From Gammaproteobacteria bacterium (GTDB lineage Bacteria > Pseudomonadota > Gammaproteobacteria > GCA-001735895): 54,322 nucleotides of DNA. A model generated the notes under the pieces. The model searched no databases. It had not been told where the DNA came from and saw only the letters and a list, made by a program, of their open reading frames with translations. This document shows positions 13,791 through 30,379 of this stretch, piece after piece; position 1 is the first letter of the stretch, and each line of letters begins with the position of its first letter. A program made the translations under genes and the position numbers. Location of the stretch: contig JASJCI010000019.1 in assembly GCA_030066085.1 (NCBI GenBank), forward strand, positions 1-54,322, in the 5' to 3' direction.

Positions 13791-13792
13791 CC

Positions 13793-14671
13793 ATGACGAT
13801 ACTGATCAACAGGGATTCGCGCGTCGTCACCCAGGGAATTACCGGCAAGACCGGCCAGTTTCATACCCATCATTCGATTGCCTATGCCAGCGGCAAGGAC
13901 TGCTACGTCGCCGGCGTTACGCCGAAAAAGGGCGGCCAGGAAGTCGAGGGTGTACCGGTGTTCGATACCGTGGCGGAGGCCAAATCCGCGACCGGCTGCA
14001 ACGTGTCGGTCATTTACGTGCCGCCGCCGTTCGCCGCCGCGGCGATCGACGAGGCCGTCGACGCGGAAATGGAGGTCGTCATCTGCATTACCGAGGGTAT
14101 CCCGGTCAAGGACATGATCCGCACGCGCGATCGCATGCGCGGCTCGAACACGGTCCTGGTCGGGCCCAACTGCCCCGGGGTCATCACCCCCGAGGAACTC
14201 AAGATCGGCATCATGCCGGGCTACATACACCAAAAGGGACATATCGGAGTGGTTTCGCGTTCGGGTACACTGACCTACGAGGTCGTCGACCAGCTGAGCA
14301 AGCTGGGTCTCGGTCAGTCGACCTGCGTTGGCATCGGCGGCGATCCGGTCAACGGTCTCAAGCACGTCGACGTGATGAAAATGTTCAATGACGATCCCGA
14401 TACGCACGGGGTGGTCATGTGCGGCGAAATCGGCGGCACCGACGAAGAAGAGTGCGCCGCGTGGATCGCCGACAACATGACCAAGCCGGTGGTCGGCTTC
14501 ATCGCCGGCGTGACCGCACCGCCGGGCAAGCGCATGGGGCATGCCGGCGCGATCATCGCCGGCGGCAAGGGCACCGCGGACGAAAAGATTCGCGCCCTCG
14601 AGGCGGCCGGGGTCAGCGTCACGCGCAACCCCTCGGACATGGGCAAGCTGATGGCCGAGGCCCTGGGCTAG
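13793..14671 (+). CDS. sucD: Succinate-CoA ligase-like alpha subunit
   Basis: CoA-binding subunit of 292 residues (E. coli SucD has 289) that partners the preceding beta subunit. The N-terminal CoA domain starts [19 protein letters not shown]. The phosphorylated histidine lies in [12 protein letters not shown] near residue 245, and [11 protein letters not shown] and SRSGTLTYE are typical. An open frame continues upstream through sucC in another frame. The true start is the ATG at 13793, two bases after the sucC stop, which implies coupled translation of an equimolar complex. Confidence 0.92.
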
Positions 14672-15016: not shown

Positions 15017-16015
15017 ATGATTTCTAAAGCGAAAAAAACGGCAATAATGGCCATTGTGGCCCTGGTGTCGACGGGCATGTTCGCTTCGGCGGCGCACGCC
15101 GAATGGTCACCGAAAAAGCCGGTCGAGTTCATCATCATGGCGGGTACTGGCGGCGGCGCCGACCAGATCGCACGCCTGCTGCAGGGCCTGATCGAAAAGA
15201 AAGGACTGTCACCGCGTCCGTTCATTCCGATCAACAAGCCCGGCGGATCCGGCGCGGAAGCGCTGCGTTACCTGAAAGACAAGGAAGGTGACGATCACGT
15301 TGTGATGGTGACGCTGAACAGCTTCTACACCACCCCGATCATCCAGAAGGGCCTGGGCGTCGATCCGACGACCTTTACCCCGATCGGCCGCATGGCGCTG
15401 GATACTTTCCTGCTGTGGGTTCACAGCGATCGCAAGGACATCACCGACCTCGATTCCTACGTCAAGGCGGTCAAGTCCACCGGCAAGAGCTGGAAAGTCG
15501 GCGGCACCGGTTCCGGCCAGGAAGATTCTATCCTGACCGCGATGATGGAGAAGGAATTCGGCTACGAAGTCACCTACATCCCGTTCCCGGGCGGCGGCAC
15601 CGTGGCCAAGAACCTGATCGGTAACCACATCGACTCCACGGTCAACAACCCGGCCGAGCAGAACGAGTTCTACCGCGCGGGCAAGAGCAAGCCGCTGGTG
15701 CAGTTCACCGGCGAGCGGATGGCGGCTTACCCCGACATTCCGACCGCGAAGGAGCTGGGTGTCGACATCGAGTACTACATGCAGCGTTCCATCAACGGGC
15801 CTCCGGGCATGTCCAAGGAAGCGCAGGAGTGGTACATCAACCTGTTCAAGACCCTGTACGAGTCCGAAGAGTGGCAGAAATTCTGCGTGGATGACGGTCT
15901 CGACTGCACCGAATGGGTGGCCGGCAGCGACCTGGCTGAATTCCACCGCAAGGCCATCGTGGCGCACACCGACCTGATCAACTCCGTCGGCGCTGCAGCC
16001 ATTACCGGGGAGTAA
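15017..16015 (+). CDS. tctC: TTT-family (TctC/Bug) periplasmic substrate-binding protein
   Basis: Extracytoplasmic receptor of 332 residues for a tripartite tricarboxylate transporter. A Sec signal peptide is clear: basic ISKAKK, a hydrophobic core, and cleavage after ASAAHA at about residue 29. The mature protein starts EWSPKKPVEFIIMAGTGGGAD, the usual Bug first strand and carboxylate-binding loop, and later has the FPGGGTVAKNLIG ligand-loop block. Bug proteins bind carboxylates such as citrate, malate, aspartate or terephthalate, so the ligand here is open. Its place next to CoA-ligase and formyl-CoA genes suggests a small di- or hydroxycarboxylate. The start at 15017 is preferred over the in-frame upstream start at 14915 because the signal peptide and AGGAGG site fit it. 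Confidence 0.9.
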   Translation: MISKAKKTAIMAIVALVSTGMFASAAHAEWSPKKPVEFIIMAGTGGGADQIARLLQGLIEKKGLSPRPFIPINKPGGSGAEALRYLKDKEGDDHVVMVTLNSFYTTPIIQKGLGVDPTTFTPIGRMALDTFLLWVHSDRKDITDLDSYVKAVKSTGKSWKVGGTGSGQEDSILTAMMEKEFGYEVTYIPFPGGGTVAKNLIGNHIDSTVNNPAEQNEFYRAGKSKPLVQFTGERMAAYPDIPTAKELGVDIEYYMQRSINGPPGMSKEAQEWYINLFKTLYESEEWQKFCVDDGLDCTEWVAGSDLAEFHRKAIVAHTDLINSVGAAAITGE

Positions 16016-16046
16016 CTCTCCGCGGAGATTCGTCTCCATCTCCGGG

Positions 16047-16065
16047 CCCGCTCCGCAGGAGCGGG
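16047..16065 (+). terminator. GC-rich hairpin between tctC and tctB
   Basis: CCCGCTCC-gca-GGAGCGGG forms an 8-bp stem, extended by flanking GGG/CCC, about 30 bases after the tctC stop. No T tract follows immediately. Such hairpins after binding-protein genes usually act as attenuators or mRNA stabilisers, raising the receptor level relative to the membrane subunits. Here that role is inferred from position. Confidence 0.55.
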
Positions 16066-16127
16066 GCGGGCCCATCGCTCCAAGTTCGTTTGTTTTTTAG
16101 CGAAATTTCGATTTCGAGGGGGAAGTC

Positions 16128-16634
16128 ATGTCGGTAAGAACCGCCGAACTCGTGATGGCGATTTTCCTGGCGCTGTGTTCAGTGGGCCTGATGGTCAAGA
16201 GTGCCGAACTGAATATCGGCTGGGTGCCGGAGCGCGGTCCCGGCTCGGGCGCCTGGCCTTTCTGGCTGTCGGCCGGCATGCTGCTGTGCTGCCTCGCGAC
16301 GCTTTACCGCTGGTTCCGCGGCATAACCCCGGAATCGCGCAACACCAGTCTCTACATGACCAGCGATACCGTTGTCATTGTCGGCATTTCCGCCGGCGCG
16401 ATCCTGTTCCTGCTGGCGGCCACCCACTGGATCGGCCTGTACGCGTCACTGGTGCTGTTCCTGCTGTTCTACCTCAAGTTCATCGGCCGTCACTCGTGGC
16501 TCGTGACGATTGCGCTGACCATCGGCATCCCGATTTTCATCTTCTGCCTGTTCGAATGGGCACTCAAGATTCCGCTGCCGAAAGCGATTACCGAGCCGCT
16601 GTTCTATCCGATCTACGACCTGATGTACTCCTAG
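16128..16634 (+). CDS. tctB: TTT transporter small membrane subunit (TctB)
   Basis: Membrane protein of 168 residues with four predicted hydrophobic helices: MAIFLALCSVGLMVK, the GAWPFWLSAGMLLCCLATLY region, VVIVGISAGAILFLLAA, and the paired C-terminal segments around ASLVLFLLFYLKFIG and TIALTIGIPIFIFCLFEW. Size and layout match the poorly conserved TctB subunit. It works with TctA to move the carboxylate delivered by TctC, driven by an ion gradient. A strong GAGGGGGAAG site precedes the ATG. It is 31 bp upstream of tctA in the same operon. Confidence 0.85.
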   Translation: MSVRTAELVMAIFLALCSVGLMVKSAELNIGWVPERGPGSGAWPFWLSAGMLLCCLATLYRWFRGITPESRNTSLYMTSDTVVIVGISAGAILFLLAATHWIGLYASLVLFLLFYLKFIGRHSWLVTIALTIGIPIFIFCLFEWALKIPLPKAITEPLFYPIYDLMYS

Positions 16635-16665
16635 GTCCCGCACGAGTTTAAGCAAAGGTTCTGAT

Positions 16666-18195
16666 ATGGGCGATATACTTGGATTACTCGGCAGCGGACT
16701 GCTGCAGGCGCTGGAGCCGCTCAATTTCGCGATGATCATCATCGGCGTCGTGCTCGGCCTGCTGGTCGGCGCGATGCCGGGGCTCGGCTCCGTCAACGGG
16801 GTTGCGATCCTGTTACCGATCACCTTCCTGGTGCCGCCGACCGCGGCGATCATCTTCCTGGCCGCGATCTACTACGGCGCGATGTACGGCGGCGCGATCA
16901 GTTCGATCACGCTTGGCATTCCGGGGGCGTCGACCGCGGTGGCAACCGTGTTCGACGGGCGACCGCTGGCGCAGAAAGGCAAGGCCGACAAGGCACTGAC
17001 CGCGGCGGCGGTGGCCTCGTTCATCGGCGGCACCATTTCGATCGTGCTGTTCACGCTGTTCGCTCCGCCGCTGGCAGAGTTTGCGCTCAAGTTCGGCCCG
17101 GCCGAGGAGTTCGCGCTGATGGTGCTCGCGTTCGCGACCTTCATCGGCCTCGGCGGCGACGATATTCCGAAGACGATCTTCTCGATCCTGATCGGCCTGG
17201 TGCTCGCGACCATTGGCCTCGATATTATTTCCGGTCAGCCGCGGCTGGTCTTTTTCGACGTGACCGGTTTCCTGCGCGGCATCAATTTCCTCGTGCTCGC
17301 GATCGGCATATACGGCATCGGCGAAATGTTGTGGACCCTGGAACAGACCAAGGGCGAGGTCACCGTGCACAACGTCAAGCTGTCGATGAAGGAAATCTTC
17401 AAGGACATCAAGGACGTCAAGGAATACATCGGTACCACGTCGCTGGGTTCGGCGCTGGGTTACTTCGTCGGCACCCTGCCGGCGGCCGGCGCGACGCCCG
17501 CGTCGCTGATGTCCTATGGCCTGGCCAAGACCTTTTCCAAGGACCCGGACAGCTTCGGCAAGGGTAACGTGTCGGGCGTGGCCGCGCCCGAGGCGGCCAA
17601 CAACGCGGCCTCTACCGGTTCGATGCTGCCGATGATCACGCTCGGTATCCCGGGTTCGCCGACCACCGCGATCCTGCTCGGCGGCATGATTATCTGGGGC
17701 CTGCGCCCGGGACCGCTGTTGTTCACCGAGCACCCGGAGTTCGTCTGGGGCCTGATCGGTTCGCTCTATATCGCCAACCTGATGACGCTGATCATCAACC
17801 TGCTGTTCATCCCGCTGTTCGTCAAGATCCTGACCCTGCCGTTCACGATCCTGGCGCCGACGATCTATATCCTGTGCGTGGTCGGCGGCTATGCGCCGAC
17901 CCAGTCGATGCACGATGTCTGGCTGATGTTCCTGTTCGGCGTCATGGGTTACCTGCTGCGCAAGCTGAACTACCCGGTGGCCCCGGCGGTGCTCGCGATC
18001 GTGCTCGGACCGCTGGCCGAACGTTCGCTGCGGCAATCGCTGCTGGCGTCGCAGGGCGACCCGATGGTCTTCCTCGAGCGGCCGATCTCGCTGATCTGCA
18101 TCCTGATCGCGGTCGCGCTGGTGCTGGTGCCGGTATTCCAGAAAATTCGCCGTCGCCAGAAGGCCGCCGCTGACGGCCCGGAGCAGGCGGACTGA
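16666..18195 (+). CDS. tctA: TTT transporter large membrane subunit (TctA)
   Basis: Polytopic permease of 509 residues with about 11-12 hydrophobic segments, the transport channel of the tripartite tricarboxylate system. The diagnostic glycine-rich repeats are present: GAMPGLGSVNGVAILLPITF in the first half and GTLPAAGATPASLMSYGLAK in the second, together with ITLGIPGAST and ITLGIPGSPTTAILLGGM. These reflect the internal duplication of TctA. Length is as expected for the family (about 500). It is followed by the GntR gene after 20 bp, so regulator and transporter may be on one transcript. Confidence 0.93.
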   Translation: MGDILGLLGSGLLQALEPLNFAMIIIGVVLGLLVGAMPGLGSVNGVAILLPITFLVPPTAAIIFLAAIYYGAMYGGAISSITLGIPGASTAVATVFDGRPLAQKGKADKALTAAAVASFIGGTISIVLFTLFAPPLAEFALKFGPAEEFALMVLAFATFIGLGGDDIPKTIFSILIGLVLATIGLDIISGQPRLVFFDVTGFLRGINFLVLAIGIYGIGEMLWTLEQTKGEVTVHNVKLSMKEIFKDIKDVKEYIGTTSLGSALGYFVGTLPAAGATPASLMSYGLAKTFSKDPDSFGKGNVSGVAAPEAANNAASTGSMLPMITLGIPGSPTTAILLGGMIIWGLRPGPLLFTEHPEFVWGLIGSLYIANLMTLIINLLFIPLFVKILTLPFTILAPTIYILCVVGGYAPTQSMHDVWLMFLFGVMGYLLRKLNYPVAPAVLAIVLGPLAERSLRQSLLASQGDPMVFLERPISLICILIAVALVLVPVFQKIRRRQKAAADGPEQAD

Positions 18196-18215
18196 CCGCC
18201 GGGCGAGTGAAAACC

Positions 18216-18959
18216 ATGCAGAGCCTGGACAACATTACCGACAGCAATGCGAAGGATGCGAGCGAGGTCCACGTGATGCCGCTCGGCGCCACCCGCGTGC
18301 TCAAGGAGCAGGTCTACTCGGTATTGCGCGAAGCGATCAGCAACATGGATATCTATTCGACGCCGAAACCGCCGCGCCTGGACGAGCGCAGGCTCGCCGA
18401 CGAGCTCGGTGTGAGCCGCACGCCGGTGCGCGAAGCCCTGTCTCGACTCGAACAGGAGGGTTTCGTGCGCAACATCCCGCGGCGCGGCACTTTCGTCGTG
18501 CGCAAGAACAAGCGCGAGGTACTCGAAATCGTTTACGCCATGGCGGCGCTGGAGGGTATGGCCGCGCGCCTCGCCAGCGAACGCGCCAGCGACGCGGAAA
18601 TTGCCGCGCTGCACGACCTGATCGATCCCTACGACGACGAAGAGGCGCGCACGCACATCAACGAGTACTCCGACTCCAATGTCGAGTTTCATCAGCAACT
18701 GATTGGCCTGAGCCGCTGCGACCTGATCATTTCGATGGCCGGCAGCCTGTCGCTGCACATGCGCGCGATTCGGGCCGAGGCGCTCAAGGACCTGGAGCAC
18801 CACCGCTCGGACCAGTCGGTCGCGGATCACAGGCGTATCGTCGAAGCGCTCGAGGCGCGCGACGCAGACAAGGTCGAAACGCTGGTGCGCGAACACGCGC
18901 TCAGCCTCGGAAAACACATCGAGGAGTATGCTCCGTACCTCGACGCCGAAGAGGCGTGA
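18216..18959 (+). CDS. GntR-family regulator with FCD effector domain
   Basis: DNA-binding regulator of 247 residues. The winged helix-turn-helix lies at about residues 25-95 (LDERRLADELGVSRTPVREA, then FVRNIPRRGTFVV), followed by an all-helical FCD domain. Metal- or ligand-binding acidic and histidine residues are visible in NVEFHQQLIG, RSDQSVADHRRIVEAL and VREHALSLGKH. FCD regulators usually repress catabolic operons and are released by a small carboxylate. It lies inside the block it probably controls, and the GTATAC palindromes before sucC and tctC are its likely sites. I use the ATG at 18216 because GGGCGAG sits 8 bases upstream. The GTG at 18207 would lie inside that site. Confidence 0.88.
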   Translation: MQSLDNITDSNAKDASEVHVMPLGATRVLKEQVYSVLREAISNMDIYSTPKPPRLDERRLADELGVSRTPVREALSRLEQEGFVRNIPRRGTFVVRKNKREVLEIVYAMAALEGMAARLASERASDAEIAALHDLIDPYDDEEARTHINEYSDSNVEFHQQLIGLSRCDLIISMAGSLSLHMRAIRAEALKDLEHHRSDQSVADHRRIVEALEARDADKVETLVREHALSLGKHIEEYAPYLDAEEA

Positions 18960-18998: not shown

Positions 18999-20747
18999 AT
19001 GGCAAGCACTGCACAATCCGTCAGCGACACCGCACACGATACCCTGGCCCAGAAGACCAAGGACGGCTCGGTCATATCCGGCGGTCACCTGGTCGCCAAG
19101 GCGCTCAAGGCCGAGGGTGTGGATACCATCTTCACCCTTTGCGGCGGACACATCATCGATATTTACGACGGCTGTCTCGACGAGGGTATCCGCATCGTCG
19201 ACGTGCGTCACGAGCAGACCGCGGCGCATGCCGCCGACGGTTATGCGCGCCAGACCGGTAAACTCGGCTGCGTGGTAACGACCGCGGGCCCGGGCTGCAC
19301 CAACGCGGTTACCGGTGTTGCCACCGCGTTTCGCTCGGAGAGTCCGATCCTGCACATCGGCGGGCAAAGCTCGCTGACGCAGCACAAGATGGGCTCGCTG
19401 CAGGACCTGCCGCACGTCGACATGATGGCGCCGATCACCAAGTTTTCGTCCGGCGTGTTTTCCACCGAGCGCGTTGCCGACATGATCTCGATGGCCGCGC
19501 GCGAATGCTTCAATGGCGCCTACGGACCGTCTTATCTCGAGATACCGCGCGACATTCTCGATGCCGAGGTGCCGATCGACAAGGCGGTCATCCCCGCGCC
19601 CGGTCACTACCGCGCGTCGACCCAATCGATCGGCGATCCGGCCGATATCGAGAAACTGGCGGATCTCCTGGTCAAGGCCGAGCGCCCCGCGGTGCTGTTC
19701 GGCCAGCAGGTCTGGGCCTGCCAGGGGCACGAGGCGGCGATCAGCATGGTGCGCGCGCTCGATATCCCGGCCTACATGAACGGCGCCAGCCGCGGCATGT
19801 TGCCGCAGGGCGATCCGCATCACTTCGATCGCACGCGTTCCGATGCGTTCAAGAACGCCGACGTGATCCTGATCGTCGGTACGCCGTTCGATTTCCGCAT
19901 GGGTTACGGCAAGCGCATCTCGCAGGATGCCACCCTGGTGCAGATCGACCAGAGCTACGCCACGGTCGGCAAGAACCGCGACATCAGCCTCGGCATCGCC
20001 GGCGATCCCGGCGCGATCCTGGCCGCGGTCGAGCAGGCGGCGTCGGGCCGCAGCGACAACGGCGCGCGCCAGGCGCGGCAGAAGTGGATGGCGGAGCTGC
20101 GCGAAATCGAGGCGACCAAGCTCGACAAGCTGATGCCGATGTTCACCACCGATCAGAACCCGATTCACCCGTATCGCCTGGCCTACGAGATCAACGAGTT
20201 TCTCGGCGAGGACACGATCTACATCGGCGACGGTGGCGACATCGTCACGATTTCGGCGCAGGCCGTGCGTCCGCGCAACCCGGGGCAGTGGATGGATCCG
20301 GGCGCGCTCGGTTCGCTCGGCGTCGGCACCGGCTTCGCGATGGCGGCCAAGCTCGCGCACCCGAACAAGGAGGTCGTCTGCCTGTACGGCGACGGCGCTT
20401 TCGGCATGACTTCGTTCGACATGGAGACCTCGCAGCGTTTCGGCGCACCCTATCTCGCGATCGTCGGCAACAACTCGGCAATGAACCAGATCCGCTACGG
20501 CCAGCTTGCCAAGTACGGCCAGGACCGCGGCGACGTCGGTAACAAGCTCGGCGACATTCCGTTCTCGAAGTTCGGCGAAATGATCGGCGGTTACGGCGAG
20601 GAAGTCACCGAGGCGAGCCAGATCCAGCCGGCGCTGCAGCGCGCGCGCGAGGCGATTGCGAAGACCGGCAACTGCGCCGTGGTCAACGTCTGGGTCGACC
20701 CGAACGAGTACGCCCCGGGCACCAAGGCGCAGACGATGTACAAATAA
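18999..20747 (+). CDS. ThDP-dependent lyase, 2-hydroxyacyl-CoA lyase 2 (ILVBL)-like
   Basis: Thiamine-diphosphate enzyme of 582 residues with the three-domain layout of acetolactate synthase and oxalyl-CoA decarboxylase. The catalytic glutamate is E72 in DVRHEQTAAHAADGYA. The ThDP/Mg motif is GDGAFGMTSFDME ending at GNNS (about residues 465-495). FTLCGGHIIDIYD, VRPRNPGQWMDPGALGSLGV and the C-terminal blocks resemble ILVBL/HACL2 more than canonical Oxc. HACLs cleave 2-hydroxyacyl-CoA to formyl-CoA and an aldehyde, while Oxc makes formyl-CoA and CO2. Either product fits the frc gene 128 bp downstream. An acetolactate-synthase role is less likely because no small subunit accompanies it. The fold is certain and the substrate is inferred. 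Confidence 0.82.
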   Translation: MASTAQSVSDTAHDTLAQKTKDGSVISGGHLVAKALKAEGVDTIFTLCGGHIIDIYDGCLDEGIRIVDVRHEQTAAHAADGYARQTGKLGCVVTTAGPGCTNAVTGVATAFRSESPILHIGGQSSLTQHKMGSLQDLPHVDMMAPITKFSSGVFSTERVADMISMAARECFNGAYGPSYLEIPRDILDAEVPIDKAVIPAPGHYRASTQSIGDPADIEKLADLLVKAERPAVLFGQQVWACQGHEAAISMVRALDIPAYMNGASRGMLPQGDPHHFDRTRSDAFKNADVILIVGTPFDFRMGYGKRISQDATLVQIDQSYATVGKNRDISLGIAGDPGAILAAVEQAASGRSDNGARQARQKWMAELREIEATKLDKLMPMFTTDQNPIHPYRLAYEINEFLGEDTIYIGDGGDIVTISAQAVRPRNPGQWMDPGALGSLGVGTGFAMAAKLAHPNKEVVCLYGDGAFGMTSFDMETSQRFGAPYLAIVGNNSAMNQIRYGQLAKYGQDRGDVGNKLGDIPFSKFGEMIGGYGEEVTEASQIQPALQRAREAIAKTGNCAVVNVWVDPNEYAPGTKAQTMYK

Positions 20748-20875: not shown

Positions 20876-22126
20876 ATGTCTAAACCACTCGACGGTATAA
20901 GAATTCTGGACTTCACCCACGTCCAGTCTGGCCCCACTTGTACCCAGTTACTCGCATGGATGGGCGCCGATGTCATCAAAGTAGAGCGCCCCGGCGTCGG
21001 CGATGCCACGCGTAAACAGCTGGTGGACGTGGAAGGCGCCGACAGCCTCTATTTCACGATGCTGAATCACAACAAGCGTTCACTGACGCTGAACTCGAAA
21101 ACGCCCGAAGGTAAAGAGGTTCTGACGAAGCTGGTGAAAGAGTGCGACGTGCTGGTGGAAAATTTCGCCCCCGGCGCGCTCGACCGCATGGGTTTCGGCT
21201 GGGAAGCGATCCAGGACCTGAACCCGCGCATGATCATGGCCTCGGTCAAGGGTTTCGGTCCGGGGCCGTACGAGGAATGCAAGGTTTACGAAAACGTCGC
21301 CCAGTGCGCCGGCGGCTCGGCGTCGACCACCGGTTTTCGCGACGGCGTGCCGGTGGTTACCGGGGCGCAGATCGGCGACTCGGGTACCGGCTTGCACCTG
21401 GCTTTCGGCATTCTCGCGGCGCTGCTGCAGCGCGAGAAAACCGGTCGCGGCCAACGCGTGCTGGCGGCGATGCAGGACGGCGTGCTGAACCTGTGCCGGG
21501 TCAAGCTGCGCGACCAGCAGCGCCTCAAGGCCGGGCCGCTGAAGGAGTACTCGCAGTTCGGCGAGGGTATCCCGTTCGGCGAGGCGACGCCGCGCGCCGG
21601 TAACGATTCGGGCGGTGGACAGCCCGGACGAATCCTGAAGTGCAAGGGCTGGGAAACCGATCCCGATGCGTACACCTATTTCATCACCCAGGCCGCGGTG
21701 TGGGAAAAAATCTGCGACGTTATCGGCAAGCCGGAATGGAAAGAGGATCCGGACTACGCCACGCCTCCGGCGCGGCTGCCGCACCTGAACGAAATATTCG
21801 GCGCGATCGAGGACTGGACCATGACCAAGACCAAGTACGAAGTCATGGAAATCTGCAATCCGCTCGACATCCCGGTGGGCCCGATCCTGTCGATGAAAGA
21901 GCTGGCCGAGGAACCGTCGCTGCGCGAAACCGGCACCATCGTCGAATGCGATCACCCGGAGCGCGGACCCTACCTGTCGGTCGGCTGCCCGGTGAAGCTG
22001 TCGGATAACGACGTTACCGTGACGCGCTCGCCGCTGCTCGGCGAGCATACCGACGAGGTATTGTCGGAAGTGCTCGGCTACAGCGCCGAGGATATTGCCC
22101 GCTTCAAGCAAGCCGGTGCGGTATAG
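20876..22126 (+). CDS. frc: Formyl-CoA:oxalate CoA-transferase family protein
   Basis: Class III (CaiB/BaiF) CoA-transferase of 416 residues that moves CoA from formyl-CoA to an acceptor acid, releasing formate. It aligns by eye with Oxalobacter Frc throughout: [20 protein letters not shown] at the start, the catalytic aspartate D168 in [10 protein letters not shown] (D169 in Frc), the mobile glycine loop GGGQPG and the block [13 protein letters not shown]. These are features specific to Frc/YfdW rather than to CaiB in general, which makes oxalate a serious candidate acceptor. It follows the ThDP lyase gene and is flanked on both sides by palindromic repeats (20752 and 22187). An AGAGG site precedes the ATG. 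Confidence 0.92.
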
Positions 22127-22186: not shown

Positions 22187-22272
22187 TTGTCATCCCGCGG
22201 TTCAACCGCGGGATCCAGAATTCCGGTAACGCTCATTCGACTGGATACCGCGCTTGAACCGCGGTATGACAA
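22187..22272. repeat. Composite palindromic repeat, copy C
   Basis: Outer termini TTGTCAT/ATGACAA enclose a left hairpin ATCCCGCGGT/ACCGCGGGAT (22192-22214), pairing CCAG/CTGG arms and a right hairpin ATACCGCG/CGCGGTAT (22245-22267). It has the same architecture as copy B with different stem sequences, as expected when the stems co-vary. Confidence 0.82.
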
Positions 22273-22305: not shown

Positions 22306-23220
22306 ATGAAACTCATCGTTCACGGCCAGCAGGCCTACGGCAAGTCCGTACTCGAAGCCATTCTCGACAAGGGGGTCGACGAGGTGGTCGCGGTTTATTG
22401 CGCCCCCGACAAGGAAGGGCGTCCGCTGGATCCGCTCAAGGAGTTCGCGCTCGAGCGCGGCCTGCCGGTGCACCAGCCGGCGTCCTACAAGGATCCCGCG
22501 GTCTGGGAACAGCTCGCGACCCACGAGGCCGACCTCTGTGTCATGGCCTACGTGCTGCTGTTCGTGCCGGAAGAGGCGCTCAACGTACCGAAACATGGCT
22601 CGATCCAGTATCACCCGTCGCTGCTGCCGTGGCACAAGGGGCCGAGCTCGATCAACTGGCCGATCATCATGGGCAAGGACAAGACCGGTCTGTCGATCTT
22701 CTGGCCCGACAACGGGCTGGATACCGGGCCTATCCTGCTGCAAAAAGAGGTCGATATCGGTCCTGACGATACCCTGGGTTCGATCTACTTCGACAAGCTG
22801 TTTCCGCTCGGGGTGGAGGCCATGATGGAATCCATCGAGCTGGTGCGCGACGGCAACGCGCCGCGCGAGGTGCAGGATCCCGATGCCGGCAGCTACGAAG
22901 GCTGGTGCCGCAAGGAAGACGTCGAGGTCGACTGGAGCAAGGGCACCGAAGAAGTCTATAACCTGATCCGGGGCGCCAACCCCCAGCCGGGCGCCTGGAC
23001 CACGCACAACGGCGCCGAGCTCAAGCTGTTCGACAGCCGTAAAAGCGATGCGTCCGGCGCAGCGGGAACGGTGCTGTCGATCGATGAGAGCGGCGTCGAG
23101 ATCGCCACCGGCGACGGTTCCATTCGGGTCATGAAGGTCCGGGGCGCAGCGGGCAAGCTCGGCGCCGCCGATTATGCCGCCGAATCCGGGCTCGCGGTTG
23201 GCGATAAGCTGGGGGCCTGA
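22306..23220 (+). CDS. Stand-alone 10-formyl-THF hydrolase-like formyltransferase
   Basis: Protein of 304 residues that resembles the N-terminal hydrolase domain of 10-formyltetrahydrofolate dehydrogenase (ALDH1L1) more than Met-tRNA formyltransferase. Shared blocks are HGSIQYHPSLLPWHKGPSS (H103), SIFWPDNGLDTGPILLQKE (D139), PDDTLGSIYFDKLFPLG and the C-terminal NPQPGAWT. The His and Asp of the formyl-transfer site are present, while the Asn of the Fmt triad is not in its usual place, as in ALDH1L1. The aldehyde dehydrogenase and carrier domains are missing. Between frc and fhs, it could release formate from 10-formyl-THF or pass the formyl group between CoA and THF. Housekeeping fmt is unlikely because def and rsmB are absent. 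A GGAGG site precedes the start. Confidence 0.78.
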   Translation: MKLIVHGQQAYGKSVLEAILDKGVDEVVAVYCAPDKEGRPLDPLKEFALERGLPVHQPASYKDPAVWEQLATHEADLCVMAYVLLFVPEEALNVPKHGSIQYHPSLLPWHKGPSSINWPIIMGKDKTGLSIFWPDNGLDTGPILLQKEVDIGPDDTLGSIYFDKLFPLGVEAMMESIELVRDGNAPREVQDPDAGSYEGWCRKEDVEVDWSKGTEEVYNLIRGANPQPGAWTTHNGAELKLFDSRKSDASGAAGTVLSIDESGVEIATGDGSIRVMKVRGAAGKLGAADYAAESGLAVGDKLGA

Positions 23221-23274: not shown

Positions 23275-24942
23275 ATGAGCGATATCGAAATCGCCCGCGC
23301 GGCGACCGCGCAACCGATCCAGGAGATTGCCGACAAGGTCGGCATTCCGGCCGACGCGGTGCGCCAGTACGGCCAGACCAAGGCCAAGATCGACCCCGAC
23401 TTCATCGAGTCGCTGTCGGATCGACCCGATGGCAAGCTCATCCTGGTTACCGCGATTACGCCGACGCCGGCGGGTGAAGGCAAGACAACCACCTCGGTAG
23501 GCCTCAACGACGGTCTCAACCGCATCGGCAAGCAGTCGGTGGTCTGCCTGCGCGAGCCGAGCCTCGGTCCCTGCTTCGGCATGAAGGGCGGTGCCGCCGG
23601 TGGCGGTTACGCGCAGGTCATCCCGATGGAAGACATCAACCTGCATTTCACCGGCGACTTCCACGCTATCGGTTCGGCGCACAACCTGCTGTCGGCGATG
23701 ATCGACAATCATATCTACTGGGGTAACGAGACGGCACTCGACGCGCGCCGCATCGCGTGGAAGCGCGTGGTCGACATGAACGACCGCGCGCTGCGCTCGA
23801 TCGCCAATTCGCTCGGCGGCCCCGGCAACGGCTTTCCGCGCGAGGACGGCTTCGACATTACCGTCGCGTCCGAGGTCATGGCGATTTTCTGCCTGTCGGA
23901 CAACCTGAAGGACCTGCAGCAGCGCCTCAACCGCATCATCGTCGGCTATACGCGCGATCGCAAGCCGATCACAGCGGAGCAGATGAACGCGCCCGGCGCG
24001 ATGGCGGTATTGCTCAACGACGCGATTGCGCCGAACCTGGTACAGACCCTGGAAAACAACCCGGCCTTCATCCACGGCGGCCCGTTCGCCAACATCGCGC
24101 ACGGCTGCAACTCGGTAATCGCGACCAAGACCGCGCTCAAGCTGTCGGATTACGTGGTTACCGAGGCCGGTTTCGGTGCCGATCTCGGCGCCGAGAAATT
24201 TTTCGATATCAAGTGTCGCAGCGCGGGCCTCGAGCCCGACGCCGCGGTCATCGTCGCCACTATCCGCGCGCTCAAGATGCACGGCGGCGTCGAGCTCGGC
24301 AATCTCGGCGAGGAAAACGTCGAGGCCGTGGCCGCCGGCTGCAGCAACCTCGCGCGTCACATCCGCAACGTCAAGTCTTTCGGCGTGCCGGTGGTGGTGG
24401 CGATCAATCGCTTCAGCGCCGATACCGACGCCGAGGTCGCCAGGGTGCGCGAGGTTGCCGAGGCCAGCGGCGTGACCGCCATCGACTGTACCCACTGGGC
24501 CAACGGCGGCGCCGGCACCGAGGCTCTCGCGCAGCACGTGGTCGAGATGACCGACACGCAAAAAAGCCAGTTCACCCCGCTGTACGACAGCGATATGCCG
24601 CTGTGGGACAAGATGCGCACCATCGCCACGCAGATCTATGGCGCCGACGACATCATTGCCGACAAGAAAGTGCGCGACCAGATCGACCAGTTCCAGGAAA
24701 GCGGTTTCGGTAACCTGCCGATCTGCGTGGCCAAGACCCAGTACAGCTTTTCCACCGACCCGAACCTGAAGGGCGCTCCCAGCGGGCACGTGGTGCCGAT
24801 CCGCGAGGTACGCCTGTCGGCCGGCGCCGGTTTCCTGGTTTTCGTTTGCGGTGAAATCATGACCATGCCGGGCTTGCCGCGCGTGCCGGCGGCGGACAAA
24901 ATTCACATTGACGACGACGGCCTGATCCAGGGCCTGTTCTGA
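23275..24942 (+). CDS. fhs: Formate-tetrahydrofolate ligase
   Basis: ATP-dependent enzyme of 555 residues (family about 555-560) that makes 10-formyl-THF from formate and THF, feeding C1 units into purine, Met-tRNA and serine synthesis. The nucleotide-binding loop [12 protein letters not shown] is at residues 62-73, followed by the family blocks [33 protein letters not shown] and DNHIYWGN. The C-terminal [18 protein letters not shown] is also typical. The start at 23275 is preferred because GGAGG (23262-23266) is 8 bases upstream. In-frame ATGs at 23260 and 23269 are too close to, or upstream of, that site. In this block it captures formate made by the formyl-CoA enzymes. Confidence 0.95.
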
Positions 24943-24957
24943 TTCGAGGACTGAGCG

Positions 24958-25809
24958 ATGATCAAGATAATCCTGGTACCGCTCGACGGCGGTGAACGCA
25001 GTGCCGAGGTGCTGGATACGGCCCTCGTGATTGCCACGCGCTTCGATGCCCACATCAAGGTGGTACACGTGCGCGCAAAGGGCAAGGAACCCTACATGAT
25101 GACCGGGGTGCCGGAAAAACTGCGCGACCAGTTCGCCGAAATGAACCAGAAGATGGCGGGTTCGGTGGTGGATACCGTGCGCGTCCAGTTCAAGGCCTTT
25201 TGCGATGCGCACCGGGTTAACGTAACGCGCAAGCCATCGACCGCGAAAGGCGTGTCGGCATCGCTGCACATCATGGACGGCAGCCCGCGGGCGGTACTCG
25301 ACCAGGAGTCCCGCCTGGTCGACGTGATCGCGATGTCGCGCCCGTTCAAGCACCGCATCGGCGGTCTCGGCGTCGGCGAAATCCACGAGTCGCTGATGGT
25401 CAACTCCGGCCGGCCGGTGCTGATCGTGCCGCCCGAGTGGAAAGCGCGCCGCGCGGACCGCGCGGCGATCGGCTGGAACGAGAGCGTCGAGGCCAGCCGG
25501 GCGCTCGCGCTGACGCTGCCGTGGCTGATGCAGATGAAAAAGGTGACCGTGATCGTGTCGAAAAAACGCGAGCAAGCGGCCGGCGACGTGGTCGATTACC
25601 TCAAGCGTCACGGCTGCAAGGCGGATTACGCCACGATTTCGGGTGGCGGTAACATCGGCAAGAAGATGCTCGAGGTGTGCGACGATATCGAGGCCGAATT
25701 CCTCGTCGTTGGCGGTTTCAGCCACACGCGCACGCGCCAGCGCTTCTTCGGCGGCGTGACCAGCTACCTGCTGGCCAATACCGACCTGATCACGGTGATG
25801 GCGCATTAG
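24958..25809 (+). CDS. Universal stress protein, two UspA domains
   Basis: Protein of 283 residues with two tandem Usp folds. The first begins IKIILVPLDGGERSAEVLDT and ends near the segment VNSGRPVLIVPPEW. The second begins RADRAAIGWNESVEASRAL and ends FFGGVTSYLLANTDLITVMAH. The C-terminal ATP-loop pattern G-x2-G-x9-G is only approximate (GGFSHTRTRQRFFGG). It begins 15 bp after fhs with a GAGG site, so it belongs to the same transcript. A Usp in a formate-producing operon may respond to acid or energy stress, which is an inference from position. Confidence 0.85.
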   Translation: MIKIILVPLDGGERSAEVLDTALVIATRFDAHIKVVHVRAKGKEPYMMTGVPEKLRDQFAEMNQKMAGSVVDTVRVQFKAFCDAHRVNVTRKPSTAKGVSASLHIMDGSPRAVLDQESRLVDVIAMSRPFKHRIGGLGVGEIHESLMVNSGRPVLIVPPEWKARRADRAAIGWNESVEASRALALTLPWLMQMKKVTVIVSKKREQAAGDVVDYLKRHGCKADYATISGGGNIGKKMLEVCDDIEAEFLVVGGFSHTRTRQRFFGGVTSYLLANTDLITVMAH

Positions 25810-25924: not shown

Positions 25925-27631
25925 ATGGCACAGGCCAATCTCAAATCAGGACCGGCCGACAAGCGCGGCAAACGCGGCCGCGGCAGGATCAAGGGCCGGG
26001 TCGTCGACCTCAACGCGCTGCTCGAGGTTCAGTCACTGCTCGGTGACGCGCCGCGCAGGCGCGATCTGTTGATCGAACACCTGCACAAGATCCAGGATCG
26101 TTACGGGCACCTGTCGGCAGCGCACCTGACCGCGCTGGCGAACGAGATGAAGCTCGCGACCACCGAGGTCTACGAGGTGGCGAGCTTTTACCATCACTTC
26201 GACGTCGTGCGCGAAGGTGACAGCGCGCCGCCGGAGCTGACCGTGCGCGTGTGCGATTCGGTCAGCTGCGAAATGGCCGGTGCCGAGGACCTGATCGCCG
26301 CGCTCGAAAGCGGTCTCGGCGACGGCGTGCGCGTGCAGCGCGTGCCCTGCGTCGGCCGCTGCGACAAGGCGCCGGTGGCGGTGGTGCGGCAGTATACCGT
26401 CGATAACGCCGATACGGACGCGGTCAGGGCCGCGGTCGACGGTGGCCAGCGCGAGCAGCCGCTGCCGCAAGACTGTATCTACTTCGACGACTACCGCCAG
26501 AACGGCGGTTACGCGCTGTACGACCGCCTGCTCGCCGGCGAGATCAGTGGCGACCAGATCATCGAAACCCTGTCGGGTACCCAGCTGCGCGGACTCGGTG
26601 GCGCCGGCTTCCCGGTCGGGCGCAAGTGGGGCATCCTGCGCGATCAGCCGGCGCCGCGGATGTGCGCGATCAACATCGACGAGGGTGAGCCGGGTACCTT
26701 CAAGGATCGCTACTACATGCTGTCCGATCCGCATCGTTTTCTCGAGGGTATGCTGATCGCGGCGCAGGTCATCGGTATCGACGCCTGCTACATCTATATC
26801 CGCGACGAGTACCCGTCGGTGATCGCGGTGCTCGAGCGCTGTGTCGACGAGCTGCGCGCGAAGTCGGGTTACGCACTGCCGCATATCGAGATCCGGCGCG
26901 GCGCCGGCGCCTACATCTGCGGTGAAGAGTCGGCCATGATCGAGTCGATCGAAGGTAAACGCGGCATGCCGCGCTTGCGCCCGCCCTATGTCGCGCAGGT
27001 CGGCCTGTTCGGCCGGCCGACGCTGGAGCACAACTGCGAATCGCTGTTCTGGATTCGCGACGTGGTCGACAAGGGCCCGGAGTGGTTCGACTCGCAGGGC
27101 CGTAACGGGCGCAAGGGCCTGCGCAGCTTTTCGGTATCCGGGCGCGTCAACAAGCCGGGCGTGCATCTCGCGCCGGCGGGCATCACGATCCGCGAACTGA
27201 TCGAGGAATACTGCGGCGGCATGCTGGACGGCCACCGCTTTTACGGCTATTTTCCGGGCGGGGCGTCGGGCGGCATCCTGCCGGCGAGCCTCGGCGATAT
27301 TCCGCTCGACTTCGACACGCTGCAGGAATACGGCTGCTTCATCGGTTCGGCCGCGGTAGTGGTGCTGTCCGACCAGGACAGCGCGAAGCAGGCCGCGCTG
27401 ACGTCGATGAAATTTTTCGCGCACGAATCCTGCGGTCAGTGTACGCCCTGCCGCGTCGGCTGCGACAAGGCGGTCAGCATCATGCAGACCGGCGACTGGG
27501 ATATCGAACAGTTGAACGACCTGTCGACCGTGATGGTCGACGCATCGATCTGCGGCCTCGGCCAGGCCGCGCCGAACCCGATCCAGTGCGTGATCAAGTA
27601 CTTCCCGCACGAACTCGGTATCGAGGAGTAG
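25925..27631 (+). CDS. NAD-dependent formate dehydrogenase beta subunit (NuoE-NuoF fusion)
   Basis: Diaphorase subunit of 568 residues that passes electrons from formate oxidation to NAD+. Residues about 30-170 are NuoE-like with [2Fe-2S] cysteines in VCDSVSC and PCVGRC. From about 200 on it is NuoF-like: the FMN loop GLGGAGFPVGRKWG at about 223, the NADH-site block DEGEPGTFKDR, then ICGEESAMIESIEG, and the [4Fe-4S] motif CGQCTPCRVGC at about 502. Length and fusion match the beta subunit of Methylobacterium FDH1 (about 570 residues), where FdsG and FdsB are joined. The alpha subunit gene starts six bases after the stop codon. Confidence 0.92.
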   Translation: MAQANLKSGPADKRGKRGRGRIKGRVVDLNALLEVQSLLGDAPRRRDLLIEHLHKIQDRYGHLSAAHLTALANEMKLATTEVYEVASFYHHFDVVREGDSAPPELTVRVCDSVSCEMAGAEDLIAALESGLGDGVRVQRVPCVGRCDKAPVAVVRQYTVDNADTDAVRAAVDGGQREQPLPQDCIYFDDYRQNGGYALYDRLLAGEISGDQIIETLSGTQLRGLGGAGFPVGRKWGILRDQPAPRMCAINIDEGEPGTFKDRYYMLSDPHRFLEGMLIAAQVIGIDACYIYIRDEYPSVIAVLERCVDELRAKSGYALPHIEIRRGAGAYICGEESAMIESIEGKRGMPRLRPPYVAQVGLFGRPTLEHNCESLFWIRDVVDKGPEWFDSQGRNGRKGLRSFSVSGRVNKPGVHLAPAGITIRELIEEYCGGMLDGHRFYGYFPGGASGGILPASLGDIPLDFDTLQEYGCFIGSAAVVVLSDQDSAKQAALTSMKFFAHESCGQCTPCRVGCDKAVSIMQTGDWDIEQLNDLSTVMVDASICGLGQAAPNPIQCVIKYFPHELGIEE

Positions 27632-27637
27632 AGAGTC

Positions 27638-30379
27638 ATGGCTGCCAATCCGGATAACATTTTCGAAACCATCGAGTTCACGCTCAACGGCCAGACCGTC
27701 GAAGCGCTGCCGGACGAGACTATCCTGCAGGCCGCGCAGCGTACCGGTACCGAGATCCCGCATCTCTGTTATACCGACGGCCTGCGCGCCGACGGCAACT
27801 GCCGCGCCTGCATGGTCGAGATCGACGGCGAGCGTGTATTGGCGCCGAGCTGCTGCCGCAACCCGAGCCCGGGCATGGTGGTCAACTCGGACAACGAGCG
27901 TGCGCGCAAGTCGCAGAAAATGGTGCTCGAGCTGCTGCTGTCCGACATGCCGGAAGACGCCTACACGCTCGACAACGAACTGACCTACTGGGCCGACAAG
28001 CTCGAGGTCGGCAGCCCGCGTTTCAAGCCGCGCCACCAGCCGCAAGCGGACCTGTCGCACCCGGCGATCGCGGTCAACCTCGACGCCTGCATCCAGTGCA
28101 CCCGCTGCCTGCGCGCCTGCCGCGAGGAACAGGTGAACGACGTCATCGGTCTCGCGCACCGCGGTCACCACGCCGAAATCGTGTTCGACATCGGCGATCC
28201 GATGGGTGAATCGTCCTGCGTCGCCTGCGGCGAATGTGTGGCTGCCTGTCCTACCGGCGCGCTGTCGAACGCGACCGGTGCGCACAAGGTCGAGGCCGAT
28301 CGCAAGGTCGAATCCGTCTGCCCCTACTGCGGCGTCGGCTGCCTGCTGACCTACCACGTGAAGGACGACAGGATCGTGCGCGTCGAGGGGCGTGACGGGC
28401 CGGCCAACTTCAGCCGTCTGTGCGTCAAGGGGCGCTACGGCTTCGATTACGTCAACCACCCGCAACGACTGATGAAGCCGCTGATCCGCAAGGAGGGCGT
28501 GCCCAAGGGACTCAACGAACACTTCGATCCGTCCGACCCGTCGAAGATGTTTCGCGAGGCCAGCTGGGACGAGGCGATGACGCTCGCGATCGGCGGCCTG
28601 AAGCAGATTCGCGATCAACACGGCGGCGCCGGCCTCGCGGGATTCGGCTCGGCCAAGGGCAGTAACGAGGAAGCCTACCTGTTCCAGAAGCTCGTGCGCA
28701 CCGGCTTCGGCACCAACAATGTCGATCACTGTACCCGCCTGTGCCACGCGTCCAGCGTTGCCGCGCTGCTCGAGGGTATCGGTTCGGGCGCGGTCTCGAA
28801 CCAGGTCGAGGACGTGCAGCACGCCGAGGTGTTCATCGTCATCGGCTCGAACCCGACCACCAATCACCCGGTGGCCGCCACCTTCATGAAGAACGCGATC
28901 AGGAACGGCAGCAAGCTGATCCTGATGGATCCGCGGCGGACCGACATGGCGCGCCACGCGACCCATTTCCTGCAGTTCAACCCGTCGACCGACGTGTCGT
29001 TGCTGAACTCGCTGCTGCACGTGATCGTCGACGAGGGCCTGACCGATGAAAACTTCATCGCCGAGCGCACCAGTCACTTCGAGGAAATCAGGGCCAACGT
29101 GGCCGACTACAGCCCGGAAAAGATGGAGTCGGTAACCGGCATTCCGGCCGCCACCGTACGCGAGGTCGCGCGCCTGTACGCAACCTCGAAAGCTTCGATG
29201 ATCTTCTGGGGCATGGGCATTTCGCAGCATATCCACGGCACCGACAATTCGCGCTGCCTGATCGCGCTGTCGATGATTACCGGCCAGGTCGGCCGCCCCG
29301 GCACCGGCCTGCACCCGCTGCGCGGTCAGAACAACGTGCAGGGCGCTTCCGACGCGGGCCTGATCCCGATGGTGTTCCCGGATTACCAGCGGGTCGACAA
29401 TCCGCAGGCGCACGCGTGGTTCAGCGAGTACTGGAACGCCGAGCTCGACGACAAGCCGGGCCTGACCGTGGTCGAAATCATGCACGCGGTGCTCGAGAAC
29501 CAGATCCGGGGCATGTACATCATGGGTGAGAACCCGGCCATGTCCGATCCGAACCTGAATCACGCGCGCGCGGCGCTGGCGGCGCTGGAGCACCTGGTGG
29601 TGCAGGACATGTTCCTGACCGAAACCGCGGCTTTCGCCGACGTCGTGCTGCCGGCATCCGGCTGGGCGGAAAAGGACGGCACCGTGTCCAACACCGACCG
29701 CCGCGTGCAGCTGGGCCGCGCCGCGGTGCCGCTGCCGGGCGAGGCGCGCCAGGACCTGTGGATTATTCGCGATATCGGCAAGGGCCTCGGCCTCGACTGG
29801 AATTACCAGCACGTGTCCGAGGTCTACGACGAAATGCGCGGCGCGATGAAGAGCATTACCGGCATCACCTGGGAGCGGTTGAATCAAAACCACTCGGTGA
29901 CCTATCCCTGCGACGATGCCGACGACCCGGGACAGGGCGTCGTGTTCATCGACGACTTCCCGACCGCCGACGGCCGTGCGCGGCTGGTGGCGGCGAAGGC
30001 GATTCCGCCGGACGAACAGCCGGACGACGAATTCCCGCTGATACTGATTACGGGGCGCCAGCTCGAGCACTGGCATACCGGTTCGATGACCCGCCGTGCA
30101 ACCGTGCTCGACGCGATCGAGCCGATGCCGGTGGTCTACGTCAACCAGAACGACCTGGCCAATCTCGGGGTCGAAGCCGGCAGCGAGATCGTCGCGCGCT
30201 CGCGCCGCGGCGAAATCCGCGCCTACGCGCGGCCCGACGGCGCGCTCAAGCAGGGCGAGGTGTTCATCCCGTTCTGCTACCACGAGGCGGCGGCCAACCT
30301 GCTGACCAACGAGGCGCTGGATCCGTTCGGCAAGATCCCCGAGTTCAAGTACTGCGCGATCAAGCTCGAAGCGGCCTAG
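27638..30379 (+). CDS. Formate dehydrogenase alpha subunit (Mo/W, NuoG-like N-terminus)
   Basis: Catalytic subunit of 913 residues oxidising formate to CO2 at a bis-pterin Mo or W centre. The N-terminus is NuoG-like: [2Fe-2S] cysteines C44, C55, C58 and C72. Two ferredoxin-type [4Fe-4S] motifs follow, CIQCTRCLRAC at 151-161 and CVACGECVAACP at 194-205. The FDH domain starts with its own cluster motif CPYCGVGC (228-235). By alignment with E. coli FdhF (Sec140-His) the active-site ligand is C369 in RLCHASS, followed by H370, so this is a cysteine rather than a selenocysteine enzyme. It completes a soluble NAD-linked FDH with the fused beta subunit. The accessory genes fdhD and fdsC/D and the gamma subunit are not present here. 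Confidence 0.93.
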   Translation: MAANPDNIFETIEFTLNGQTVEALPDETILQAAQRTGTEIPHLCYTDGLRADGNCRACMVEIDGERVLAPSCCRNPSPGMVVNSDNERARKSQKMVLELLLSDMPEDAYTLDNELTYWADKLEVGSPRFKPRHQPQADLSHPAIAVNLDACIQCTRCLRACREEQVNDVIGLAHRGHHAEIVFDIGDPMGESSCVACGECVAACPTGALSNATGAHKVEADRKVESVCPYCGVGCLLTYHVKDDRIVRVEGRDGPANFSRLCVKGRYGFDYVNHPQRLMKPLIRKEGVPKGLNEHFDPSDPSKMFREASWDEAMTLAIGGLKQIRDQHGGAGLAGFGSAKGSNEEAYLFQKLVRTGFGTNNVDHCTRLCHASSVAALLEGIGSGAVSNQVEDVQHAEVFIVIGSNPTTNHPVAATFMKNAIRNGSKLILMDPRRTDMARHATHFLQFNPSTDVSLLNSLLHVIVDEGLTDENFIAERTSHFEEIRANVADYSPEKMESVTGIPAATVREVARLYATSKASMIFWGMGISQHIHGTDNSRCLIALSMITGQVGRPGTGLHPLRGQNNVQGASDAGLIPMVFPDYQRVDNPQAHAWFSEYWNAELDDKPGLTVVEIMHAVLENQIRGMYIMGENPAMSDPNLNHARAALAALEHLVVQDMFLTETAAFADVVLPASGWAEKDGTVSNTDRRVQLGRAAVPLPGEARQDLWIIRDIGKGLGLDWNYQHVSEVYDEMRGAMKSITGITWERLNQNHSVTYPCDDADDPGQGVVFIDDFPTADGRARLVAAKAIPPDEQPDDEFPLILITGRQLEHWHTGSMTRRATVLDAIEPMPVVYVNQNDLANLGVEAGSEIVARSRRGEIRAYARPDGALKQGEVFIPFCYHEAAANLLTNEALDPFGKIPEFKYCAIKLEAA

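Follow-up and report, generated by a model that had tools for sequence, protein, structure and literature searches.

A stand-alone formyltransferase encoded behind formyl-CoA transferase and predicted to link formyl-CoA and tetrahydrofolate in Proteobacteria

Described formyltransferases and the protein of this study

In the full-length enzyme, the hydrolase domain of ALDH1L1 is described as transferring the formyl group of 10-formyl-tetrahydrofolate (10-formyl-THF) to the thiol of 4'-phosphopantetheine, and the isolated domain needs millimolar mercaptoethanol (PMC4388273, in excerpt). According to the same excerpt, the amine formyltransferases carry Asn at a position where ALDH1L1 carries Ile104, and the I104A and I104N variants retain about 50% and under 10% of the hydrolysis, respectively (PMC4388273). 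A second relative, HypX, has been proposed to transfer the formyl group from 10-formyl-THF to CoA itself, and its contacts with the CoA diphosphate (R9, Q15 and R131) were reported not to be crucial (PMC6802093, in excerpt). Our search of CC-licensed full texts found no known gene for formyl exchange between CoA and folate and no description of such a CoA/folate formyl exchanger, and an older subscription paper may hold one.

This study was concerned with a formyltransferase gene in the window, which is the whole 54,322-nucleotide stretch of gammaproteobacterial DNA that was analyzed. The gene, here called FT, is an intact ORF at 22306-23220 (+) with an ATG start and GGAGG within 20 bases upstream, and it encodes a protein of 304 residues which is predicted, from its sequence and its neighbors, to be a formyl-CoA:tetrahydrofolate formyltransferase. 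It starts 179 bp behind the end of frc and ends 54 bp before fhs, all on the same strand. An earlier note on this DNA was correct in placing a stand-alone protein between formyl-CoA transferase and formate-THF ligase.

The product matched Formyl_trans_N (E 9.6e-29) and Formyl_trans_C (E 7.4e-20) in the Pfam search and contained no ACP-like, aldehyde dehydrogenase or crotonase-like domain. Its PF00551 score of 100.8 bits, against a gathering score of 26.1, places it in the Formyl_trans_N superfamily. It fell under the curated cut-offs for Fmt (TIGR00460, 148.6 versus 201.5 bits) and PurN (48.7 versus 150.1 bits), and PurU (TIGR00655) was absent from its list of curated-family matches; FT has no N-terminal ACT domain, whereas PurU has one. 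Among PDB sequences the top matches were chains of the ALDH1L1 hydrolase domain (E 2.8e-58 to 1.6e-56), followed by Fmt (E 2.7e-43) and then by ArnA, HypX and PurN. Thus, the earlier statement that FT matches only the ALDH1L1 hydrolase domain holds for the best match by sequence, but four other families match as well and the fold comparison described below ties with Fmt.

The genome from which the window comes holds three further PF00551 genes and no PurU over the cut-off. One is PurN (L001), which lies behind a purM-like gene and scores below the PurU cut-off, and another is a separate Fmt (L002). The third (L004:1408-2052, -) is a short formyltransferase-like gene of 214 amino acids with the motif LNLHPSCLP, directly behind a deformylase-like gene.

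Residues, tree and fold of the FT family

Relatives of FT were collected by a scan of a genome collection with three aligned orthologues. The best 80 of 188 were kept, with 51-91% identity; these are the most similar loci, and the choice favors conserved gene order. Because there are 188 relatives and the gene order is conserved, the FT ORF is not a chance ORF. Adding L035 and L036 and removing the duplicate L049 gave 81 loci, mostly from Gamma- and Alphaproteobacteria, and record titles also name SAR324 (L048, L078, L085) and Opitutia (L077); many of the genomes are metagenome assemblies. The 81 loci were aligned with the window.

The catalytic residues H103, S105 and D139 are invariant in all 82 rows of this alignment. 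Position 101, which is Gln in the window and corresponds to the Asn of the amine transferases, is Cys in 46 of the 82 rows and Gln in 36, and never Asn. A second alignment of 49 rows showed Asn at this position in 11 of 11 Fmt rows and in PurN, and Ile or Val in ALDH1L1 and two HypX rows. W118 was found in all 34 FT rows of the second set, in ALDH1L1 and in both HypX, and in only one of the 11 Fmt. C201 appears to be specific to the family, as it was present in 34 of 34 FT rows and in none of the 15 others, one of which is gapped there. The Fmt stretch RPAGRGRKL, the tRNA-binding loop, is absent from FT and likewise from ALDH1L1 in the alignment.

ALDH1L1 resembles FT over nearly the full length (34-37% identity in structure alignments), shares the SxxNW motif and has the same catalytic triad, with His106, Ser108 and Asp142 corresponding to H103, S105 and D139. 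It differs in Ile104, where FT has Gln or Cys, and in its ACP-like and ALDH domains, whereas FT is free-standing, is found in bacterial oxalate clusters and has free CoA as its predicted partner. HypX likewise has no Asn, shares the Trp of the NW/DW motif, and has been proposed to exchange formyl between folate N10 and CoA (PMC6802093, in excerpt). Unlike FT, HypX is fused to a crotonase-like domain which makes CO, has Asp80 in place of the Ser of the triad, and is only about 20% identical. The HypX residues R9, Q15 and R131 align with FT Q9, K13 and F162 (hand-counted numbering); since these CoA-diphosphate contacts are not kept, no CoA site is recognizable in the FT sequence. Fmt shares the fold and the C-terminal Formyl_trans_C domain with FT, but only Fmt has the Asn and the RPAGRGRKL loop.

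A quick tree without HypX split FT and ALDH1L1 from the 11 Fmt sequences with an SH-aLRT support of 100. ALDH1L1 fell inside FT on a long branch in this tree, and the exact branching order is unsure. A tree that included HypX gave a support of 94 for the split and was set aside, as its long branches are unstable. The structure model of FT (mean pLDDT 95, pTM 0.90) matched ALDH1L1 4qpd with a Foldseek E of 7e-35 and a Z of 35.4, Fmt 5uai with the same Z of 35.4, and HypX with a Z of 22. Since Fmt and ALDH1L1 scored equally, fold comparison was rejected as a guide to function. By sequence, FT is a distinct family of its own, mostly proteobacterial.

Gene neighborhoods of FT

FT belongs to a same-strand series of genes (+) in the window, in the order PanE-family reductase, SucCD-like ligase, Tct-type transporter, GntR regulator, ThDP enzyme, Frc, FT, Fhs, UspA and formate dehydrogenase. 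The PanE/ApbA-family reductase (11483-12487) scored 446.8 bits against a cut-off of 223 (NF005089). It is possibly an oxalyl-CoA reductase, or another oxalyl-CoA/glyoxylate enzyme, since a PanE2-like CoA-acylating glyoxylate dehydrogenase adjoins frc-oxc in Cupriavidus (PMC7486775, in excerpt). It is followed by a sucC-sucD-like ADP-forming CoA ligase (12627-14671, with genes at 12627-13790 and 13793-14671; NF001913 and NF004230, over cut-off), by tctCBA-type transporter genes (15017-18195, with genes at 15017-16015, 16128-16634 and 16666-18195), which were named from sequence and an annotated relative, and by a GntR/FCD regulator (18207-18959).

The next gene (18999-20747) encodes a ThDP enzyme at the position of oxc which is not a canonical Oxc. 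It scored 228 bits against the Oxc cut-off of 557, is 23-27% identical to the canonical Oxc of related loci, does not keep the YE pair of Oxc in the alignment, and has 2-hydroxyacyl-CoA lyases as its nearest solved structures. Window-type and canonical Oxc enzymes alternate at the same operon place. Oxalate is the presumed substrate of the cluster, an assignment which the enzyme family makes secure for clusters with a canonical Oxc (1033 bits in L055) and not for those with the window-type ThDP enzyme.

The frc gene (20876-22126) encodes a formyl-CoA transferase of CaiB family III and scored 708.7 bits against a cut-off of 504.2 (TIGR03253). The gap between frc and FT contains a palindromic repeat pair (22187-22272) with 32-nt arms that are 91% complementary; a 28-base unit of it matches twice in the window, with none expected by chance. 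Behind FT are fhs, the gene for formate--tetrahydrofolate ligase (23275-24942; NF010030, 925.7 bits versus a cut-off of 652), a UspA-family gene (24958-25809; PF00582) that is often kept in the cluster, a NuoE/NuoF-like fused subunit of an NAD-linked formate dehydrogenase (25925-27631), and FdhA, the alpha subunit of formate dehydrogenase (27638-30379; TIGR01591, 749.3 bits versus a cut-off of 666.25).

Among the loci collected by similarity, 77 offered 700 bases or more in front of FT, and 67 of these have frc upstream on the same strand, at a median distance of 48 bp (range 12-2971). At the 77 loci, the ThDP enzyme was of the window type in 43 and of the canonical type in 25, was not found in six and was unreadable in three; FT accompanies frc with either type. 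In the same set, fhs is directly behind FT in 41 of the 70 loci with room for it. Nine of the ten loci without an upstream frc were checked, and eight have frc elsewhere in the genome over TIGR03253, the ninth (L088) being without it.

These loci were picked by similarity, and samples drawn by taxonomy were therefore counted as well: 289 genomes of Alphaproteobacteria (the class of L107's genome) and 274 of Gammaproteobacteria (the class of the window). FT was present in 21 alphaproteobacterial genomes and frc in 24, with both in 18, where fewer than two are expected by chance (9e-21 in the Fisher test, which, like all those used for co-occurrence, ignores genome kinship). Thus, frc is present in 18 of 21 genomes with FT versus 6 of 268 without it, and the link within the fhs-carrying genomes is 3e-16. 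The frc gene adjoins FT in 11 of the 21 genomes, is elsewhere in seven and is absent in three. FT was present in three gammaproteobacterial genomes and frc in five, and all three FT genomes are among the five. No frc over the cut-off was found in those three of the 21 alphaproteobacterial FT genomes or in L084 and L088.

The fhs gene was present in 20 of 21 alphaproteobacterial FT genomes versus 109 of 268 without FT, and in 39 of 46 FT genomes of a separate set. Several of the FT genomes in which it was not found (7 of 46 and 1 of 21) are small or broken assemblies; for example, the contig of L098 stops some 60 bp past FT. The missing fhs was considered as proof of the direction of the reaction and rejected because the assemblies are incomplete, with just L083 and L106 being mildly informative. 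At L083, FT adjoins folD in a genome with frc and no fhs found. Two genomes, those of L099 and L102 (G306 and G308), gave four and five fhs matches, copies or fragments that lie at the ends of several contigs and may be real duplicates or assembly breaks.

Several individual loci showed other arrangements. Two alphaproteobacterial genomes of 1.4 Mb (L140 and L141) hold the transporter, GntR, ThDP enzyme, frc and FT in one cluster and have fhs at another site, which suggests that the module matters in streamlined genomes. At L079 (9567-10004, 4123-6401) the start of FT overlaps a YbgC-type thioesterase gene by four bases, genes nearby resemble the alpha and beta subunits of oxalate oxidoreductase, under the cut-off, and PanE is on the opposite strand. 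Two further genes are closely packed with FT: one at L150:779-1420 (-), which follows it after about 17 bases, and one for a CitE-like lyase at L052:10918-11784 (+), which overlaps its end.

The slot behind frc is occupied by a different gene in some clusters without FT. For example, a gammaproteobacterial genome with the ThDP enzyme and frc and no FT at the threshold used (G055) has the order GntR, ThDP enzyme, frc, X, UspA, CitE-like, and the FT carrier L035 has GntR, ThDP enzyme, frc, FT, fhs, UspA, PanE, CitE-like. Gene X encodes 722 amino acids with ATP-grasp, CoA-binding and CoA-ligase domains, the Pfam composition of the ADP-forming acyl-CoA synthetase family, and failed all specific-family cut-offs. 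Its counterpart is behind frc in the alphaproteobacterial genomes G325, where it is 76% identical and accompanied by a canonical Oxc, and G378, where it is 71% identical and accompanied by the window-type enzyme. Genes of this synthetase lie directly behind frc in FT-less clusters at L127:3579-5747 (-), L164:1156-3294 (-) and L165:5435-7543 (-). Among eight FT-less genomes with frc, the synthetase is present in three and absent in G557, G595 and G601, and the contigs of G265 and G542 end soon behind frc. The same-genus genome G265 (frc, no FT found) was rejected as a counter-example, as its contig (L126) stops some 146 bp past frc.

No copy of the synthetase at 60% identity or more was found in 102 FT loci, two of which have 30-32% relatives further off. 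Among the matches listed for plasmid records (12 and 20 rows), the synthetase immediately follows frc, in the same orientation, in six, from Skermanella mucosa, S. rosea, three Azospirillum and Caballeronia sp. M1242, and is further from frc in two Phyllobacterium and one Paracoccus record. FT and fhs occupy that slot in CP031587.1, the only plasmid with FT at 50% identity. Thus, an ATP-linked CoA ligase alternates with the FT-Fhs pair in the place behind frc, which is a positional argument and not proof. This alternation would be expected if FT-Fhs does the same net job via 10-formyl-THF, and a hydrolase would not fit it. The synthetase itself is, from its domains, a candidate formyl-CoA or oxalyl-CoA synthetase.

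Predicted reaction and competing functions

FT is, in our judgment with somewhat better than an even chance, a free-standing and reversible formyl-CoA:THF formyltransferase. This prediction extends from the observed gene, family, residues, co-occurrence and slot replacement to a putative acceptor, reversibility and direction. In the proposed reaction, His103, Ser105 and Asp139 of Formyl_trans_N would hold the formyl carbonyl while the group moves from N10 of THF to the CoA thiol or back, with Gln or Cys in place of the Asn that amine acceptors would need. FT would join the folate pool to the pool of CoA-bound formyl groups, which the ThDP enzyme would supply and Frc would use, and together with Fhs it would allow a folate-mediated interconversion of formyl-CoA and formate coupled to ADP/ATP. 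Towards folate, the pair would supply C1 units without ATP cost, or Fhs might run backwards and make ATP; towards CoA, formyl-CoA would be primed or refilled for Frc when oxalyl-CoA is drained. A thioester is the higher-energy form, so transfer from formyl-CoA to folate should be downhill.

The exchange reaction is favored for several reasons. First, FT is coupled to frc. Secondly, its residues fit, and ALDH1L1 and HypX provide precedent; as CoA has the same thiol arm as phosphopantetheine, a free FT domain beside formyl-CoA enzymes would most simply be a CoA/folate exchanger. Third, FT and fhs replace the synthetase in the slot behind frc. Lastly, FT adjoins folD at L083. Several observations count against it: in both precedents the formyl group goes from folate to the thiol, the HypX step being proposed only; the CoA-diphosphate contacts of HypX are not kept in FT; the choice of the most similar loci favors conserved gene order; Gln or Cys at position 101 differs from the Ile or Val of ALDH1L1 and HypX; PurU is missing in 40 of 40 FT genomes, as a substitute hydrolase predicts; comparison of the modeled fold does not separate FT from Fmt; the window ThDP enzyme is only a putative producer of formyl-CoA; some FT genomes have no frc over the cut-off; and the folD neighbor at L083 would also suit a hydrolase. 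The formyl-CoA/THF link proposed in the earlier note is the best-supported reading, on evidence beyond that of the note, namely the frc coupling, the lost amine-transfer Asn and the slot replacement, and the transfer may run in either direction. The note's description of it as a new activity for the fold was overstated in view of ALDH1L1 (PMC4388273) and the HypX proposal (PMC6802093), as excerpted. Overall, the idea is plausible and testable, within a known fold and with chemistry foreshadowed by both relatives.

It is unlikely that FT is instead a 10-formyl-THF hydrolase, a PurU substitute which sets THF and formate free, perhaps assisted by CoA or a small thiol, and balances the folate pools under the formate flood from oxalate. 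In its favor, the closest relative by sequence bears the name of a hydrolase domain, the folD neighbor at L083 is a place where PurU-like draining of 10-formyl-THF makes sense, and FT and PurU, which may have a common role, shared no genome in 40 cases. This reading was taken seriously. PurU was found in 65 of 289 alphaproteobacterial genomes, 0 of 21 with FT versus 65 of 268 without (p 0.0056). However, PurU is rarer with fhs (16 of 129 genomes versus 49 of 160 without fhs), and within fhs-carrying genomes it was found in 0 of 20 with FT versus 16 of 109 without, which is not significant (p 0.13). Because fhs confounds the comparison and the frc link persists in the same genomes, the exclusion is weak, though not nil, evidence for a hydrolase. 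Such an enzyme would also waste ATP beside fhs. The futile cycle raised in the earlier note applies to a plain hydrolase only, as fhs with an exchanger would form a reversible ATP-linked bridge. Finally, a hydrolase would leave unexplained why FT is tied to frc and formyl-CoA and why it has a slot in common with the ADP-forming acyl-CoA synthetase, and the mercaptoethanol requirement of the isolated ALDH1L1 domain also argues against it (PMC4388273, in excerpt).

A formyl-CoA hydrolase (EC 3.1.2.10), in which water and not THF takes the formyl group, is quite improbable. The position of FT right behind frc and the ThDP enzyme would suit this activity, which has been stated without a gene since 1963 (PMC10192776, in excerpt) and would then gain one. 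But FT keeps the folate-enzyme catalytic triad and an ALDH1L1-like sequence, its fhs and folD neighbors point to folate, and hydrolysis would waste the thioester used by Frc.

Rather less probable still is an FT that works one way only, using 10-formyl-THF from Fhs to form the formyl-CoA that primes Frc, and never in reverse. This is the direction of both precedents, the PanE and SucCD-like ligase of the window would drain or feed CoA esters, and priming could be the role of the ADP-forming synthetase found in the slot behind frc. However, fhs was not found in some FT genomes, several of them incomplete assemblies, and thermodynamics favor the opposite direction.

It is very improbable that FT is an ordinary paralogue of Fmt or formylates another amine: it shares the Fmt fold and its best Z and is annotated fmt_2 in strain La 6, but the window's genome has its separate Fmt, FT is below the Fmt cut-off, and both the Asn and the Fmt loop are missing.

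Returning to the reversible formyl-CoA:THF formyltransferase, we propose more tentatively, at somewhat less than an even chance, that FT and Fhs replace an ADP-forming formyl-CoA synthetase (formyl-CoA + ADP + Pi = formate + CoA + ATP, via 10-formyl-THF) and that FT is the first free-standing CoA/folate formyl exchanger. If so, oxalate users would reach the C1 pool without spending ATP, or would make ATP by substrate-level phosphorylation; the acyl-CoA synthetase at the same place in other oxalate operons would be explained as well. Formyl-CoA has few known fates, and through a direct, reversible folate bridge the breakdown of oxalate would be tied, without ATP, to the assimilation of C1 units. 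The energy balance currently credited to marine Proteobacteria that use oxalate would change, and synthetic C1 pathways that make formyl-CoA would gain a direct door to folate.

Cultured carriers of FT exist, with an orthologue in Roseivivax sediminis and another in the marine strain La 6, in which one stretch holds ppc, sucCD, oxc, frc, FT, fhs, a transporter, ketopantoate reductase and glyA2, a gene set that suits C1 assimilation via serine. Its FT (L163:9001-9918, protein QEW23307.1) is annotated as fmt_2, a methionyl-tRNA formyltransferase, and scored 132 bits against the Fmt cut-off of 201.5. Annotation of the family as Fmt, as seen in La 6, probably needs correcting if FT is a formyl exchanger.
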